A stretch of DNA of 64,000 nt from Thermoplasmata archaeon (lineage in GTDB: Archaea; Thermoplasmatota; Thermoplasmata; Thermoplasmatales; Thermoplasmataceae). The notes beneath the pieces are model-generated. The model was given only the letters and a program-made list of their open reading frames with translations, made no database searches and was not told where the DNA came from. This document shows, in pieces, positions 1,002 through 57,411 of this stretch. Made by a program: the position numbers and the translations under genes. The stretch covers positions 1-64,000 of the forward strand of contig JAJZJZ010000003.1 of the NCBI GenBank assembly GCA_021809755.1, read 5' to 3'. Numbering within the stretch: the stretch's first letter is position 1; each line of letters starts with the position of its first letter.

Positions 1002-1186
1002 TATATTGTTGAAAGCCTTAAATCATAGATGGAACTTTGCCGGCTACCCGTATGAATTAATGCACTGATCTGATGTACTAAGAAATATTAAACCACATTG
1101 TTTCCATATGCAGCAATAATAGGAATCTGTCGGAACTTCCACTCGAAGAATGATAATATGATATTTTCACACTGCCCCCCATAAAA

Positions 1187-1219
1187 TTTATTAATCCCCC
1201 CCCCTCCCCTTTCGGTGCT
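1187..1219 (+). promoter_or_regulatory. Core promoter with TATA-like TTTATTAA (1187-1194) followed by homopolymer tract CCCCCCCCC-T-CCCC (1196-1209) before the ATG at 1220
   Basis: Read directly: ataaaatttattaatcccccccccTccccttttcggtgct-ATG region; box centre about 30 nt from ATG. Confidence 0.55.
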
Positions 1220-2152
1220 ATGGAACTAAGAAAAGCTCTATTATCCATAACAGCCATAGTAATTGTGATATTGTTCGTAGGTATGTCCATTAATCCAATA
1301 CAGACATCTTCCGTTGAACACGTTCAAAAACAATCGCAGAAGATTTCAGGAGATGGCACACCCACCTCCACTGCAATGAAAGCATATTCCCTGTTAAAAG
1401 AAAGTAACCTAAGTTTCATGTATACCAAAACCGTGATTTCCGGATCAGGGAATAGTAAAGTGCTTCATATTGAAATTGTATATAGCTATTCCTCAGCAAT
1501 GACCGCTCCTGAAATTGGCGAAAATATAACACAATTTTCACATGAAGGTAAAGTTAGCGTTAGTTTCAGAGGACATAGGATGTATATTACATCGAGTGTT
1601 CACATTACTGACAAATTAAATTTATCGAACACATATCACAACAGGGAGAATAGTCCCCTAATTGCCACTGATTCCATGCCGGGGTCTTTTTATTACCATA
1701 TTTATACTAAATCGCTGTCAGGATATAATGCGATACTATCGGTTACGAGGGTAGGGATTCCTCAGCTCAGCGTATATTCAGTTGCAACAGTTGGAATTAT
1801 GCTGGGAGAAGTAGTTGCATATGAGGAGGGGGCAATTATTTCCATTGATCCTGCAGCTGCTTCCATAGTTCCATATACCATAGCAATAATCGCTGCAGAC
1901 ACAGTGTATTTATATACCTATGCTCTGAGTCACCACGCACCAACAATATATATTGACGTAGGATTCAGCTATGGAACGCAATGGTATAATTTCTATAATA
2001 TTGGAGCATATGGTGAAGAAGGTATGTACATGAGCAATTATGATTCAAGTGGTGGATTGTATGAACCCTTGATGACATCATATGGACCGGGGACAGCTTC
2101 AATATTTAGCCATCATGGTGCATGGAACCCTAATGCACAGCCACCATGGTAA
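1220..2152 (+). CDS. Predicted exported/membrane-anchored protein with N-terminal TM segment and internal hydrophobic Ala/Gly-rich segment; unknown family, N-terminus resembles the 56397-57203 protein
   Basis: N-terminus MELRKALLSITAIVIVILFVGMSINPIQ parallels MKTNRVLMGVTAILIVILFIGVAMQPVN of the other protein; no enzymatic motif. Confidence 0.7.
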   Translation: MELRKALLSITAIVIVILFVGMSINPIQTSSVEHVQKQSQKISGDGTPTSTAMKAYSLLKESNLSFMYTKTVISGSGNSKVLHIEIVYSYSSAMTAPEIGENITQFSHEGKVSVSFRGHRMYITSSVHITDKLNLSNTYHNRENSPLIATDSMPGSFYYHIYTKSLSGYNAILSVTRVGIPQLSVYSVATVGIMLGEVVAYEEGAIISIDPAAASIVPYTIAIIAADTVYLYTYALSHHAPTIYIDVGFSYGTQWYNFYNIGAYGEEGMYMSNYDSSGGLYEPLMTSYGPGTASIFSHHGAWNPNAQPPW

Positions 2153-11680: not shown

Positions 11681-12340
11681 TTAGTTGTGACTAACAACAT
11701 TGCTTTTACTAATGGCCTTAAAGTCAACAAATCCAAGCCATAATAATGCTATTCCTGCTAGTTCCGCATAGTAGAGGAATGCTGGGAAAGCAACGATATA
11801 CAATGTGCCTGCGATACTAACGACAATCACCCCTGCAATTATGCTGAGTAGCTTATTGTTTCTTGTCTTCCTATATGAAATGGCAGATATCAGGACTAAC
11901 AAAATTGCAGCCGGGAAAGTCGCGATAGAAGAGGCTATCGTAACCAAAATTGGCAGAGGCCCAAAAACAACTCCTTGAGTTATTATATCTCCTACATTTG
12001 TGGTTCCAAGAGAGACTATAAGAAATATGTCGGCTGCAATGTTGAAAATAATATATGCATCAGAAAGTCTCTTCTTACCTAGAAGAGTAACAGAGCCAAT
12101 GGCTAGAAACTCAACAAGTATTGCTACTAAGAAGAGATACAATCCCATTAATAGATCTGAGAAAATTCCAAAAGCAAATACGACTTCAATTGCAACGGAA
12201 ATCGAAAAAACCCATAGACCAGCTGACCAGTAGAAGAGGTTCCCTGTTCTTTTCCTTATAAGATTTATGGACATTATTAAAGAGAGCCCTACGCTTAGAA
12301 TAAGAATAATAATTGTTGATATCTCTGCCTCAATATACAT
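11681..12340 (-). CDS. Polytopic (about 6-7 TM) membrane protein of unknown function
   Basis: Repeated hydrophobic segments; no recognised motif. Confidence 0.6.
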   Translation of the reverse strand: MYIEAEISTIIILILSVGLSLIMSINLIRKRTGNLFYWSAGLWVFSISVAIEVVFAFGIFSDLLMGLYLFLVAILVEFLAIGSVTLLGKKRLSDAYIIFNIAADIFLIVSLGTTNVGDIITQGVVFGPLPILVTIASSIATFPAAILLVLISAISYRKTRNNKLLSIIAGVIVVSIAGTLYIVAFPAFLYYAELAGIALLWLGFVDFKAISKSNVVSHN

Positions 12341-12601
12341 CTAATTATTTCCTGTGTTATGACATTAACATAATGTTTAAAAGGTTTCCTTACAGGTCGT
12401 TTTTACATTAGCCAATTATCCATTTCACTTTGTTTATCAAGATTCTGTGTTCGTTTAGAAAAACTCTTTGGCGATCTGATTTAATATTTATGACGGTTTG
12501 CAAACTGTTTTCATTGTATTAGAGTTTTTTATTAGAATAACCCCACAAATAAGGGCATAATACAATCTTAAATAGTTATTGCTCATATAAATTAGATTTA
12601 A

Positions 12602-13843
12602 ATGCCGAAAGATAGCGATCAACGTGTTTTAAAAAAGAGGGTAGTAATAATAGGCGCGGGATTTGGTGGCTTAAGATTTTTATACGATATCAAAAAGCAA
12701 TTCAAGAATGATATGGATATTGTAATAGTTGACGAAAGAGAGACAAGTCTAGAAAAGCCGTCACTTGTCGAGGTTGCACTGGCAGGAAAACCCGTGAGTC
12801 ATACACAGATTCCAATAAAGAATATAGCCAAATCACAAAATGCGGAGTTTGTTAACTCAAGAGCAACTATGATAGATGCAGAAAAAAATCTCGTTACTCT
12901 AAAGGATGGATCTATCCTTAATTATGACTATCTTGTCATTGCCACCGGTGCAGTGAAAAATTACGATGCTATTCCTGGTTTCAAAGAATATGGATATTCA
13001 GTGTGCGACGATTATCAAGCACCAAGGATGTGGAATGCAATTAATAATTTCAAGGGGGGAAACATTGTTATTGGGGCCTCAAAAACGAAATGGGGTGAAA
13101 AGTCAACCGATATAAAACTAGATGCCCCTTGCGAAGGGCCAATAGGAGAAATAATGTTTATGCTTGATTTTTTCCTGAGAGAGCATGATTTGAGAGAAAT
13201 ATCTAGCCTTACTGTTTTTACCCCTGGTAAGATATTTTTTGATGATGTTGGACCTAAGATCCATAAGAAAATAGAACCGATAATCACAAAAAAAGGTATT
13301 AAGATCGTGACTGAAAAAGTCATCACCAGAATTGAAAAAAATTCAGTTCACTTCGAAGATGGTACAGAACTTCCAAGCGACCTCACGCTGGTAATACCTC
13401 CATATACAGGGCCAGAGTTAATCAAAGATTCTGGGTTAGGAGATGAATACGGTTTTATAAGAACAGATGAACACATGAGACATCCTCTACATCAAAATAT
13501 ATTCGTCGTAGGAGATTGCAACGCCAATTCAATGCCAAAGCTAGGTCATATTGCTACATTACAGGCTGATGTGGCAGCATCCTCTTTTGCAAATGAAATA
13601 ACTGGGAAAGGTAGTGTGATTAAATTCAAACCTGAAGTTTTCTGTATAATGAACAGAGGAGGAGTCGAGGCAACCTTAATTTTATCAGATACCCTTTTTG
13701 GTGGTAAGGTTGACAAGACACTGAACGGACCCATCGCTCACCTTATGAAATGGGGATTCGATACATATTCATACTATACCAGAGGAAAGTTGCCCCCCGA
13801 ACTTTTACAGAAATCACTGGAGACCATGCTTAAAGAATTTTAA
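12602..13843 (+). CDS. Sulfide:quinone oxidoreductase / type II NADH dehydrogenase-like flavoprotein
   Basis: VVIIGAGFGGLRFL; YDYLVIATGA; NIFVVGDCNA; two SQR-like Cys (DAPCEGP, FCIMNRGG). Confidence 0.82.
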   Translation: MPKDSDQRVLKKRVVIIGAGFGGLRFLYDIKKQFKNDMDIVIVDERETSLEKPSLVEVALAGKPVSHTQIPIKNIAKSQNAEFVNSRATMIDAEKNLVTLKDGSILNYDYLVIATGAVKNYDAIPGFKEYGYSVCDDYQAPRMWNAINNFKGGNIVIGASKTKWGEKSTDIKLDAPCEGPIGEIMFMLDFFLREHDLREISSLTVFTPGKIFFDDVGPKIHKKIEPIITKKGIKIVTEKVITRIEKNSVHFEDGTELPSDLTLVIPPYTGPELIKDSGLGDEYGFIRTDEHMRHPLHQNIFVVGDCNANSMPKLGHIATLQADVAASSFANEITGKGSVIKFKPEVFCIMNRGGVEATLILSDTLFGGKVDKTLNGPIAHLMKWGFDTYSYYTRGKLPPELLQKSLETMLKEF

Positions 13844-53244: not shown

Positions 53245-53542
53245 AAAACAAAATACTCAGTGCTCTATCAACGCAATTACATATTTAGTCATTAGTCAAT
53301 CCACGAACTTTTTCATGTGCCTGATATTATTCGAGTTTTGGGGGGACTATGAGCTTGCAATCTTCAATGCTTATGCGTGTTCACGAAAATACGAAGAAAG
53401 GATATTTCTTCTAGTTCCCTCGGACATTTTCATAAATAAAATGCCATTAAGAATGTAACAAGTTAAGGTTAACCAGAGAATTTAAGTTGGTGTAAATTAA
53501 CTGATTTTTCCTCTGCAACTGAAATAAGGATTCTAGAACTAT

Positions 53543-53866
53543 CTACTTTTGACTTTTCATTAGAGTCAAATATTTCGCGTTTAAGAACCCCACTATTATA
53601 AACAGAGGGAAAGTTGAAACCATGATGATTAAGCCATCCTGTTCTCCGGGATTCTGATATCCTGCCATTGAAAGTGCATACCAAAAAATATATATCTCTA
53701 AGAGACCTATTATTAATGCAGCCGTCGTAAACAAAAGTATCAGTTTTTTATAAAGCAATGCTTTGATAGGGATCTGGGATCTGAAATCTCGTAAAATCAC
53801 GTATATTATTCCACCAGATTCTATTAAAAGTAACAGAACCCAAAAAAAAAGTAGTAAAATTTTCAC
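53543..53866 (-). CDS. Small polytopic membrane protein (3 TM), partner of 53870-54634
   Basis: Three hydrophobic segments; starts 4 nt after the upstream CDS end. Confidence 0.6.
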   Translation of the reverse strand: MKILLLFFWVLLLLIESGGIIYVILRDFRSQIPIKALLYKKLILLFTTAALIIGLLEIYIFWYALSMAGYQNPGEQDGLIIMVSTFPLFIIVGFLNAKYLTLMKSQK

Positions 53867-53869
53867 CCC

Positions 53870-54634
53870 CTAATTAAACCATACTTGTGTGCCACTTCCA
53901 TATTCACTTATGAAAGCGTGAGATACCCCAGCAATACTGCCACTTAAAGCGATTCCTGCTACACCTGCATAAGCATATAATGGTACGTTGTACCAGAATG
54001 TATAAACGCCTCCTGCTGAATTCAAACCGTATAAACCAACGGATGAAGTTATAGAACCCCCTTCAGCATCCCATGGGTAATAGTAATTATTAACAAAATC
54101 TAGGTGAATATACGAATATCCAGTGCTTTCATAATAATTAGTCATTGTCGATGACTCATAAGTCATCCCAGCACCTATGATTAGTAAAGCGGCACCAATT
54201 GCCTGTCCCAAAAGCGGTATAGGTGAGAAGAGTGCAATTAAGCCAGCGGCTACGGTGCCATAACTAGCCACAGTAGTTAGGCTGTTCCAAGTATTAAAAA
54301 AAGACTGCGCTGATGAGCCATAATATTCTACATTGAAATTATCGGATTCTCCATATGTTACAGACCATCCTCCTAACCACCACGGGGCGGTATAGACATA
54401 ATAATTTATATTAACCCAAACCCACGGGTCTATAAAGTTTCCGGTTGGTGTAGTTACGTTTACCTTCCATGCTTCGTATTGAGTTCCATTAAGTTTCACC
54501 GTATATAAAGTACTATGATAATAGAATGCACCCTGCGAAGTATCGATTGTGGAATTAATGTATTTAACTGGTTTCCCTAAATTAGTTACCATCTCCATAT
54601 GTGGGACCGATAATTGGACATTTTCTTTTGACAA
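53870..54634 (-). CDS. Exported-type Tyr/Gly-rich protein lacking a recognisable signal segment; possibly a 5'-truncated member of the module family
   Basis: Central hydrophobic Gly/Ala hairpin LIALFSPIPLLGQAIGAALLIIGAG plus aromatic-rich flanks; the ORF opens only at TTG and is preceded by an in-frame stop. Confidence 0.5.
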   Translation of the reverse strand: MSKENVQLSVPHMEMVTNLGKPVKYINSTIDTSQGAFYYHSTLYTVKLNGTQYEAWKVNVTTPTGNFIDPWVWVNINYYVYTAPWWLGGWSVTYGESDNFNVEYYGSSAQSFFNTWNSLTTVASYGTVAAGLIALFSPIPLLGQAIGAALLIIGAGMTYESSTMTNYYESTGYSYIHLDFVNNYYYPWDAEGGSITSSVGLYGLNSAGGVYTFWYNVPLYAYAGVAGIALSGSIAGVSHAFISEYGSGTQVWFN

Positions 54635-54857
54635 ATAATTGCTTTGTTCTAAACTAGTAACTTATTTTCCGCACATTTGAAAACGAATAACCCAGCTTTA
54701 GCTTTCAGTTGGAAAAAATATTTTCCCTTGCCAATATCCATCATCTTCTGAAGCTAATTTTTGTTAATGGAGAGGTCTTTTTGGAATGCTCATCCACCTT
54801 TCAATAATTGAGGAGCAGGTGGAACTGTAGATTGCTGAATATTGATAGGAAACCTCA

Positions 54858-55331
54858 CTAATTTTTAACACTTCCTCGCAATTTTCCCCATCTCTCTAAA
54901 TAAGCAATGACTATAACAATAACGCCTACAATTTGCAGAAAAATTAGTTGATTTAGTTCACCGATGTAGTAAACTGTGAGTAAAAAATCAAATAAAGTGG
55001 TTAAAGACATGAAAGCAATTAAAAATAAGGCATATTTTTTGGCAATCTTTCCTCGTTTCAGTTCTGCATCCACTGGAGTTATTATTTCATTTACATGATT
55101 AATATAATTTAAGTATATTGACGCAACAAATGTGATAGGTGTTGCCACAATAAAGAGAAGGAAATAAACACTTATTTGTTGGGCTACAAAGGAATAGTTA
55201 AAACCGTTACCTAACAGAGACCTAAAAACGCTCGTAAGATGGATTAGAAGTTCTAAACCAGAAAATACAATAGCCATAGTAAAGAAAAAATATGACATTT
55301 TTTTAAGATTTTCAGCTGAAGATTTCATCAT
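54858..55331 (-). CDS. Polytopic membrane protein (4 TM), unknown
   Basis: Four hydrophobic segments; same strand as the neighbouring modules. Confidence 0.55.
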   Translation of the reverse strand: MMKSSAENLKKMSYFFFTMAIVFSGLELLIHLTSVFRSLLGNGFNYSFVAQQISVYFLLFIVATPITFVASIYLNYINHVNEIITPVDAELKRGKIAKKYALFLIAFMSLTTLFDFLLTVYYIGELNQLIFLQIVGVIVIVIAYLERWGKLRGSVKN

Positions 55332-55541
55332 ACCCGTTTCGCCCTAACTTGGCAGAATTTGTTGAGTTCCATAAACCTAATTATTATTTCCATATTTATT
55401 TAACCATTTAGTGGTAAATTTGCAAATCCGCTCATGGAGTAAGGGTACGTAACAATTTGACTTGTGCTTTTCCATCAACATTCGGAATATAGATCTCAAT
55501 TATATTATTGCAAAATACAAATTCCGCAGATGATAAAAACC

Positions 55542-55760
55542 ATGTTCAGTGTTCAAGACCATTGCAGAATAAGGATAGATAAGAAGGATATTCGCGTAAG
55601 GTATTTCCTCTTGCCATTCGAGAAGCTGGTTGAATCAATCTAGTATCTTTTCTTACATGAGGACGCGAGTTTCAAGAAATATCTCATAGAACTGAGTGAA
55701 GCATGCACAGTCATGGTGAACTACGTCGAGAGAAAGGAAAGAACCCGCAAACAGACTTGA
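55542..55760 (+). pseudogene. Short reading frame with one internal TAG, probable gene remnant
   Basis: MFSVQDHCRIRIDKKDIRVRYFLLPFEKLVESI*YLFLHEDASFKKYLIELSEACTVMVNYVERKERTRKQT*; TAG at 55641-55643. Confidence 0.4.
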
Positions 55761-55836
55761 ATAAAGACTCTGGGCGGATGGCCACTCTTTCCTCCTTCTC
55801 TCAGCATGGATAGCCAGAGCTGTCTAAAAAGTTAAC

Positions 55837-56346
55837 TCATTTCAGAGATACCAGTTTATGCTTGTCATAATTTATTAAAAAGTAGAAAAGTAAACATGTT
55901 GAAACAGTGCCAAACAGAATGAAAGGAATTAGTATGAATACCACATTTCCCAGATATATCTGAAGAATAGAAGATGATGGAAAAGGGATATAAATTTCAT
56001 ATAGAAATGTAAAAGCGAACAACAACACAACAAGAGAAGTTAATGATACTTTAAAATAGAATTGAACATATTTTTTCTGTTTGTTGTACATCCAATCAGA
56101 AAATGATAAGGAAAAACCAAATTTTGTTAATTTTTTCGAATAAAAATACCAAACAATACAAAGTGGCAACATAAAAAATGTTATGAGGATAAGATTAACA
56201 TATCCCAATACCCTTTCAATAGGGTTATAGTTTGAAAAGTAAATCTCAGAATAATTTATAGCAATGAGTAACAGCCATAAAAGTCCAATTGTAATAATTG
56301 TTCTTTTGTACAGCAACAAATAATATTCTTTCGATTTTTCTTTCAT
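55837..56346 (-). CDS. Polytopic membrane protein (4 TM), partner of 56397-57203
   Basis: Four hydrophobic segments; 50 nt downstream of the exported-protein gene. Confidence 0.6.
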   Translation of the reverse strand: MKEKSKEYYLLLYKRTIITIGLLWLLLIAINYSEIYFSNYNPIERVLGYVNLILITFFMLPLCIVWYFYSKKLTKFGFSLSFSDWMYNKQKKYVQFYFKVSLTSLVVLLFAFTFLYEIYIPFPSSSILQIYLGNVVFILIPFILFGTVSTCLLFYFLINYDKHKLVSLK

Positions 56347-56396
56347 TCAGATTACCCCAATAAACTGTTGTGTATTTTAATTGTTAATATAAGAGA

Positions 56397-57203
56397 TTAG
56401 ATGTTCCCCTGATATAATGTTATTATGCCCTCTACATTACTTCCATATGGATCGAATGGAGCATTAATTTGAGTACCAGTGTAACTAAACCAGCCGATAC
56501 CAATAGTATAAGTAGTAAAACTTATTCCGTTTTGTCCTCCCATTTCGTCATACCAAGTAAAAATAGCACCACCTAAGAGAAATGCTGCGCCCACGAACCC
56601 TGCGGCCGGCCCTGAAAGTGCAGATTCAATTATTCCAGTGAACGCAAAGCCTGTCATAAATGTATCGAACATTTGCTGATTAAATCCAATTCCATTTGAT
56701 AATAAATACGCCGTCATATCTATATACAGACTGGGACCAACGTTTGAATTAGTTTTTTGTGAACTGCTATTATTGAATGATGTGCTTAATATTTTATAAT
56801 TTCCTGATGACGAGTATATCGGTATTAGTGTCATATTATTGGTTGAATTTATCATTATTGCCTGATGAAATAGTTTTCCGTTCATTGTTATGGTAACAGC
56901 CAATCCATGCACATTAGCACTACTTGAATTGTAAGAATCCCAAGTTATGTTCATTACTTCATTTGATACGTTTGATCCTGCCAGAAAAGGCGCATCATTT
57001 TTAATTTTTGTATTGTTGCTCATCGAATTAACTAAATTTAGATGGTGCTTTCCGGCAATATAACATAAAGAACCATTCCTACCATAGTTGTGAGGTGACA
57101 ATCCATTGTTAATTTGATTATTGACTGGTTGCATTGCCACTCCTATAAACAATATCACGATTAGTATTGCTGTTACTCCCATTAAAACTCTATTAGTTTT
57201 CAT
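56397..57203 (-). CDS. Predicted exported/membrane-anchored protein, N-terminally similar to 1220-2152
   Basis: MKTNRVLMGVTAILIVILFIGVAMQPVN N-terminus; internal ALSGPAAGFVGAAFLLGGAIF; start set at 57203 because the TATA-like box is 28 nt upstream. Confidence 0.65.
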   Translation of the reverse strand: MKTNRVLMGVTAILIVILFIGVAMQPVNNQINNGLSPHNYGRNGSLCYIAGKHHLNLVNSMSNNTKIKNDAPFLAGSNVSNEVMNITWDSYNSSSANVHGLAVTITMNGKLFHQAIMINSTNNMTLIPIYSSSGNYKILSTSFNNSSSQKTNSNVGPSLYIDMTAYLLSNGIGFNQQMFDTFMTGFAFTGIIESALSGPAAGFVGAAFLLGGAIFTWYDEMGGQNGISFTTYTIGIGWFSYTGTQINAPFDPYGSNVEGIITLYQGNI

Positions 57204-57234
57204 TAAACCCGAATTCCCCCCCCCCCGATATAAA
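57204..57234 (-). promoter_or_regulatory. Core promoter with TATA-like TTTATAT (57234-57228) followed by an 11-G homopolymer (57226-57216, minus strand) before the ATG at 57203
   Basis: Minus strand reads AATATTTATATCGGGGGGGGGGGAATTCGGGTTTAATG. Confidence 0.6.
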
Positions 57235-57411
57235 TATTGCGTGACACATAATAACATAGAGAAATACGACCCACTGAGAAAGCTCGAAAAGTATGAGTTA
57301 TGGTTACACTAAATCAAAGATGAGAAAATGTGTTCCAAATTCTGGTGGAACAGCAGATCAAATCGTAACATTAAAGCAATAAGAACAAGAATAAATCGAA
57401 GTGAGTATCTA

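Follow-up and report, generated by a model that had tools for sequence, protein, structure and literature searches.

Random and reversible switching by repeat slippage is well known in bacteria and is a hallmark of pathogens and commensals. Phase variation through a homopolymer or short repeat in the promoter spacer is found for porA and opc in Neisseria and for hifA/hifB in Haemophilus. In these bacterial switches the promoter is of sigma-70 type and the repeat separates its -35 box from its -10 box.

The Haemophilus hif promoter work is cited in a 2025 review, where archaea come up solely as a topic for later research (PMC11868660). A study of homopolymers within the coding genes of prokaryotes included 18 archaeal genomes, and we found no archaeal promoter case in it (PMC2831843). 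Nor did we find a description of an archaeal promoter slippage switch in the open-access literature (subscription journals are mostly outside this coverage). The two promoters described here, from an uncultured acid-mine archaeon of a species related to E-plasma, carry long C or G tracts in the spacer that leads from the archaeal TATA box to the start codon; their genes encode exported-type proteins.

Two tract promoters in the window

The window is the whole stretch of 64,000 nucleotides that was analyzed and corresponds to contig C144 of a 2.08-Mb assembly (179 contigs, 86% complete). Genome G070, of the same genus, is collinear with much of it at ∼79–84% nucleotide identity. Features of the two promoters and their genes are collected in Table 1.

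Table 1. Tract promoters and associated genes in the window (coordinates are window positions).
Feature	Position	Strand	Remarks
C6 run just 5' of the TATA box	1175-1180	+	Not in orthologs
TATA box TTTATTAA	1187-1194	+	5' base 33 nt before start codon; direct reading
Tract C9-T-C4 in TATA-to-start spacer	1196-1209	+	Direct reading; order is T 1195, C9 1196-1204, T 1205, C4 1206-1209, TTTCGGTGCT 1210-1219, ATG 1220
Exported-type protein, 310 aa	1220-2152	+	Hydrophobic N-terminus (MELRKALLSITAIVIVILFVGMS); conserved C-terminal domain ending WNPxxxPPW
TGTCACG element	57240-57246	-	5 nt upstream of TATA box; common to most tract promoters of the genus
TATA box TTTATATC	57227-57234	-	5' base 31 nt before start codon
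G11 tract (C11 on + strand) in TATA-to-start spacer	57216-57226	-	
Exported-type protein, 268 aa	56397-57203	-	MKTNRVLMGVTAILIVILFIGVAMQP...

On the minus strand the second promoter reads TTTATAT-C-G11-AATTCGGGTTTA-ATG(57203). An earlier sequence-only reading had given 25 nt between box and ATG at the 1220 gene and 24 nt at the 57203 gene, and both distances agree with the letters as read directly. The same direct reading bears out its observation that a C run in one gene and a G run in the other (coding strand) occupy the matching promoter place. The N-termini of the two proteins, which it had called similar, are 39% identical over the first 36 aa.

At the TATA box of the 1220 gene, TTTATTAAT is unchanged in the G070 and G072 orthologs, and the flanks of the tract are conserved. 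The tract itself differs between the three orthologs: C9TC4 in the window, C-T-C10 in G070 and C7 in G072. Among paralogs with conserved flanks it ranges from C6 to C10 and from G8 to G12. The 1220 tract is interrupted by one T, which should lower its slippage relative to the pure G11 of the 57203 gene, and several tracts in relatives are also interrupted and should likewise be less prone to slip; both points speak against a slippage switch. The upstream TRTCACG element common to most tract promoters of the genus is absent from the 1220 gene and its orthologs.

A Pfam scan gave no match for the 1220-2152 protein (P0001) and only sub-threshold matches for P0002. No convincing relative of known structure was found (one match, E 0.94), and the predicted structure model had a mean pLDDT of 28.6, too poor for a fold search. 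The conserved C-terminal domain of the 1220-2152 protein (GxYGEEG ... WNPxxEPPW, alignment A2) occurs in eight genera of the family and has no Pfam or solved-structure match. Viral contigs searched for relatives yielded none, and a viral origin was rejected on this ground. The slot of the 57203 gene (window 53288-57353) is much shorter in E-plasma (L173, near 12132-12626), where all that it contains of this N-terminal family is a degenerate fragment of 89 aa (L151) that has no tract.

Placement of long G/C runs in genome, genus and order

Placement of the runs was assessed by exhaustive pattern searches together with individually read stretches. Dinucleotide shuffles of the window contained on average 0.27 C9/G9 matches vs 4 observed, and 4 were reached in one of 100 shuffles. 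In the whole 2.08-Mb assembly, C9/G9 occurs at these two sites only, as the C9 that is followed by T-C4 and as the C11. Contig C42 has a G8, the third run of at least eight bases; it too occupies the TATA-to-start spacer, here of a third gene whose N-terminus is of the type shared by the other two. All three runs of at least eight bases in the assembly are thereby located in the TATA-to-start spacer of an exported-type gene, whereas of the 22 runs read that have a length of exactly seven, not one is placed in this way.

The same placement is seen across the four genomes of the genus, in which 7/8 runs of at least nine bases and 8/12 runs of at least eight lie in TATA-to-start spacers of exported-type genes. 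In the order outside the genus, only 2/45 runs of at least nine show the arrangement. One is in G049 and belongs to the same protein family; the other, in G081, precedes an apparent cobalamin adenosyltransferase gene (L099; box position counted by hand). Fisher tests gave P values of 4e-4 for 3/3 vs 0/22, 2e-6 for the genus vs the rest of the order (runs of at least nine) and 9e-6 with an ortholog pair counted once, all of them rough, since the genus genes are partly homologous and are not independent draws, so that independence is overstated.

The striking feature is the position of the runs, not their number. Non-random tract placement is established for this genus, and chance placement was rejected from the genome-wide positions of the runs. 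The sequence-only reading had held that the repetition argues against chance and had proposed a scan of runs of at least eight for promoter enrichment; both the shuffles and the genome-wide positions, all of them promoter spacers, confirm this, and the scattered runs devoid of promoter or family enrichment that would have spoken against it were not what the genome or the genus contains. It had also suggested a shared switching mechanism. A shared mechanism is well supported, because 3/3 and 7/8 runs sit in the same promoter spacer, where a change in length would be expected to alter expression; we infer the switching itself, that is, a change of tract length within populations with an effect on expression.

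The promoter arrangement in relatives

In most promoters of the genus, TRTCACG stands 5 nt ahead of the TATA box, the tract comes next, and 9 to 14 nt separate it from the ATG or GTG. Tracts in the MELRKALL subgroup are poly-C (C9TC4, C10, C10, C6, and C7), and those outside it are poly-G (G8, G10, G11, G11, and G12, plus G9 in G049). GAGAGA is among the tract kinds in relatives, some members have GAGAGAGAGA or GGGAGAGAGAGA in the tract place, and interrupted tracts (G5AG5, G6AG4, G5AG3) occur as well. Both length and kind of the tract vary, while the TATA box is kept, as is the upstream TRTCACG in most. In a scan for GA repeats, only L196/L050 and L206/L153 among the loci read have the repeat in this promoter spacer; most of the others lie in open frames. 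The anatomy of the promoter, its recurrence, the restriction of tracts to this position and the differences in tract length and kind between relatives are all direct observations.

By count alone TRTCACG is weak (18 matches vs 11 for the reversed pattern), and the evidence for it is its position before exported-type genes. Two tract genes of sister species G071 (L067 and L072) have the same promoter arrangement and other N-termini. The tract therefore belongs to a promoter class and not just to one protein family, and the similar N-termini stressed in the sequence-only reading, although real, are not required. The protein of L176 (G070:C2:157354) resembles that of L067; its exported-type gene has a TRTCACG promoter, and where L067 has G10 ahead of the start codon it has a long AT repeat.

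The G/C-rich and often purine-rich spacer might instead be a fixed regulatory element on which promoter activity depends and which is repetitive only as a by-product; it could be a binding site, an initiator region, or a segment that is stiff or forms quadruplexes. The interrupted yet purine-rich versions, G5AG5, G6AG4, G5AG3, and GGAAGAGAAG, keep the composition and lose the purity as such an element would, and the upstream TRTCACG shows conventional regulation of the tract promoters too. But a sequence-specific site should not allow poly-C in one subgroup, poly-G in the other and GA or AT repeats elsewhere, and other TRTCACG genes exist that have no tract. Different repeat units and both strands in one place point to repetitiveness, and not to one particular sequence, as the shared property of these spacers, and we consider a fixed element unlikely.

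Copying without function is still less probable. Here a cassette of promoter and signal sequence that happened to contain a G/C run would have been copied among paralogs, the run being functionless. Cassette copying is real, as genes that are otherwise unrelated show 80–86% identity over the promoter and the initial ∼56 nt of the coding sequence. However, long pure runs persist in varied lengths and on both strands, also in L067 and L072 with their other N-termini, and without selection pure runs of 10–12 should erode everywhere. Tracts have been lost or shortened in the degenerate copies L058 (ORF of 61 aa) and L035 (frameshifted).

Promoter spacing as a candidate switch and its known counterparts

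Base composition upstream of 145 genes revealed an A+T-rich zone at -33 to -23, and in 490 kb of genus sequence (a few tract genes being part of this count) ordinary genes most often have a TATA box that begins 29–31 nt ahead of the start codon. For the genus tract genes and for G049, the 5' base of the box is 25–33 nt before the start. In archaeal leaderless genes the TATA box lies about 25–37 nt upstream (PMC3160421). Around 80% of leaderless transcripts in Haloferax have the start codon as their very first bases, and leaders six to twenty nt long are uncommon (PMC4983044), and very short leader changes alter output in haloarchaea (PMC4574771). The A+T zone and the TATA spacing fit the leaderless pattern, and leaderless transcription is predicted for the tract genes as well. 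Over the range of 25–33 nt, tract length would therefore decide on which side of the start codon transcription presumably begins. In a few ordinary genes the spacer likewise differs by an indel of one or two bases between window and G070, so the tract difference between orthologs is weak evidence when taken alone.

The explanation that fits best, and that we regard as probably correct, is slippage-driven phase variation of promoter spacing adapted to leaderless archaeal promoters. The slippage-prone repeat would set the distance from TATA box to start codon in a leaderless or nearly leaderless promoter, and replication slippage would add or remove bases in the tract. With TBP and TFB fixing where transcription begins, some 25 nt past the box, each such change should shift that point relative to the ATG: a shorter tract would give an mRNA beginning inside or past the start codon, and a longer one would add untranslated bases. 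Each exported protein might thus be tuned or switched randomly, reversibly and gene by gene, which we infer to be a means of varying surface or secreted proteins. MutS was not found in the four genus genomes by a search that was positive in 11/14 control genomes; the best evidence of its absence comes from G070 (96% complete), the other three genus genomes being incomplete.

That the tract acts instead within a longer coding region, slippage shifting the reading frame, is highly improbable: the 57203 gene does have an in-frame upstream ATG at 57257, upstream starts are present in one or other frame of some relatives and a different gene family in these genomes has a coding GA repeat, but existing upstream starts precede the TATA box, as does the sole in-frame start of the 57203 gene at its present tract length, and the 1220 gene, its G070 ortholog, and the genes on G071 C109 and G049 C33 have no upstream start in an open frame at tract lengths of -2 to +2. 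At the 1220 gene, the sequence ahead of the tract is free of start codons in every frame, the repeat is not part of a translated frame and slippage therefore cannot act by frameshift; this mechanism was rejected for the gene.

The coding GA repeat is found soon after the start codon, with 10 copies in L201 (G072:C24), 11 in L212 (G070:C3), 11 in L213 (G071:C49), and 7 in L224 (G049:C39). The product is an exported-type protein whose N-terminus is hydrophobic and whose length reaches about 500 aa. The frame from the ATG stops shortly after the repeat in all four assemblies and by arithmetic would be open at GA9 or GA12, so that from its sequence the gene looks like a frameshift-type contingency locus. 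Runs of G9 to G11 occur in a different family of the order, in the part of an exported-type gene that encodes the hydrophobic N-terminal segment (L073 in G008, L074 in G009, L075 in G010, L076 and L102 in G016). These runs have a conserved place and differing length, and one of the two G016 copies is apparently out of frame, which makes them a second candidate frameshift switch.

A strict TATA-G9-ATG pattern gave no match in 393 genomes; it misses even the 57203 gene (box TTTATATC), and a looser pattern was substituted. With the looser pattern, which also gave chance-like matches and matches in the reversed control, three loci from other families of the class were found (L237 in G480, L238 in G531, L244 in G318) that combine a TATA-like box, a G10–G12 tract and a start codon with a hydrophobic N-terminus. 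They are leads, and possibly the same design arisen independently. The box-tract-ATG arrangement also stands before two genes for proteins that are not exported, the apparent cobalamin adenosyltransferase (L099, G081:C70:22401) and an apparent aminomethyltransferase (L245, G060:C1:937607), reflecting either chance or wider use.

Returning to phase variation of promoter spacing, our confidence is evenly divided on its broader form: an archaeal leaderless-promoter system, in which a one- or two-base change can remove or bury the start codon, that governs a set of exported proteins across this acid-mine Thermoplasmatales genus and is paralleled independently in further lineages of the class. If true, free-living archaea of acid-mine biofilms would bet-hedge their exported proteins by a simple mechanism, perhaps against viruses or neighbours.

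In the VARTIG Ig-domain modules of Thermococcales, diversifying pressure likewise acts on archaeal proteins that are secreted or at the surface, but their hypervariability is in gene content and sequence, and a promoter repeat is not part of the account in the relevant passages of PMC8416519. Homopolymer-based gene inactivation has been proposed for archaea as well as bacteria (PMC2831843), there with poly-A/T within coding genes and not in promoter spacers. Contingency loci with a homopolymer or repeat in the coding region, such as the poly-G genes of Campylobacter (PMC4965091, PMC8437040), likewise have long G/C tracts in genes for exported or surface proteins, and the rest of the genome is nearly free of them, as seen here; their switching is by frameshift, whereas the 1220 tract is outside any frame with a start codon.

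The porA, opc and hif switches share with the tract promoters a slippage-prone repeat in the core promoter of surface or exported genes, made of poly-G/C of 8–12 or dinucleotides, whose length sets the spacing of promoter landmarks. There the repeat occupies the -35/-10 spacer of a sigma-70-type promoter; in our candidate switch it lies downstream of an archaeal TATA box, between box and start codon, and would shift the transcription start relative to the ATG. Because it lacks the -35/-10 placement we do not class the tract system with the bacterial promoter-spacer switches, although it may work like them.
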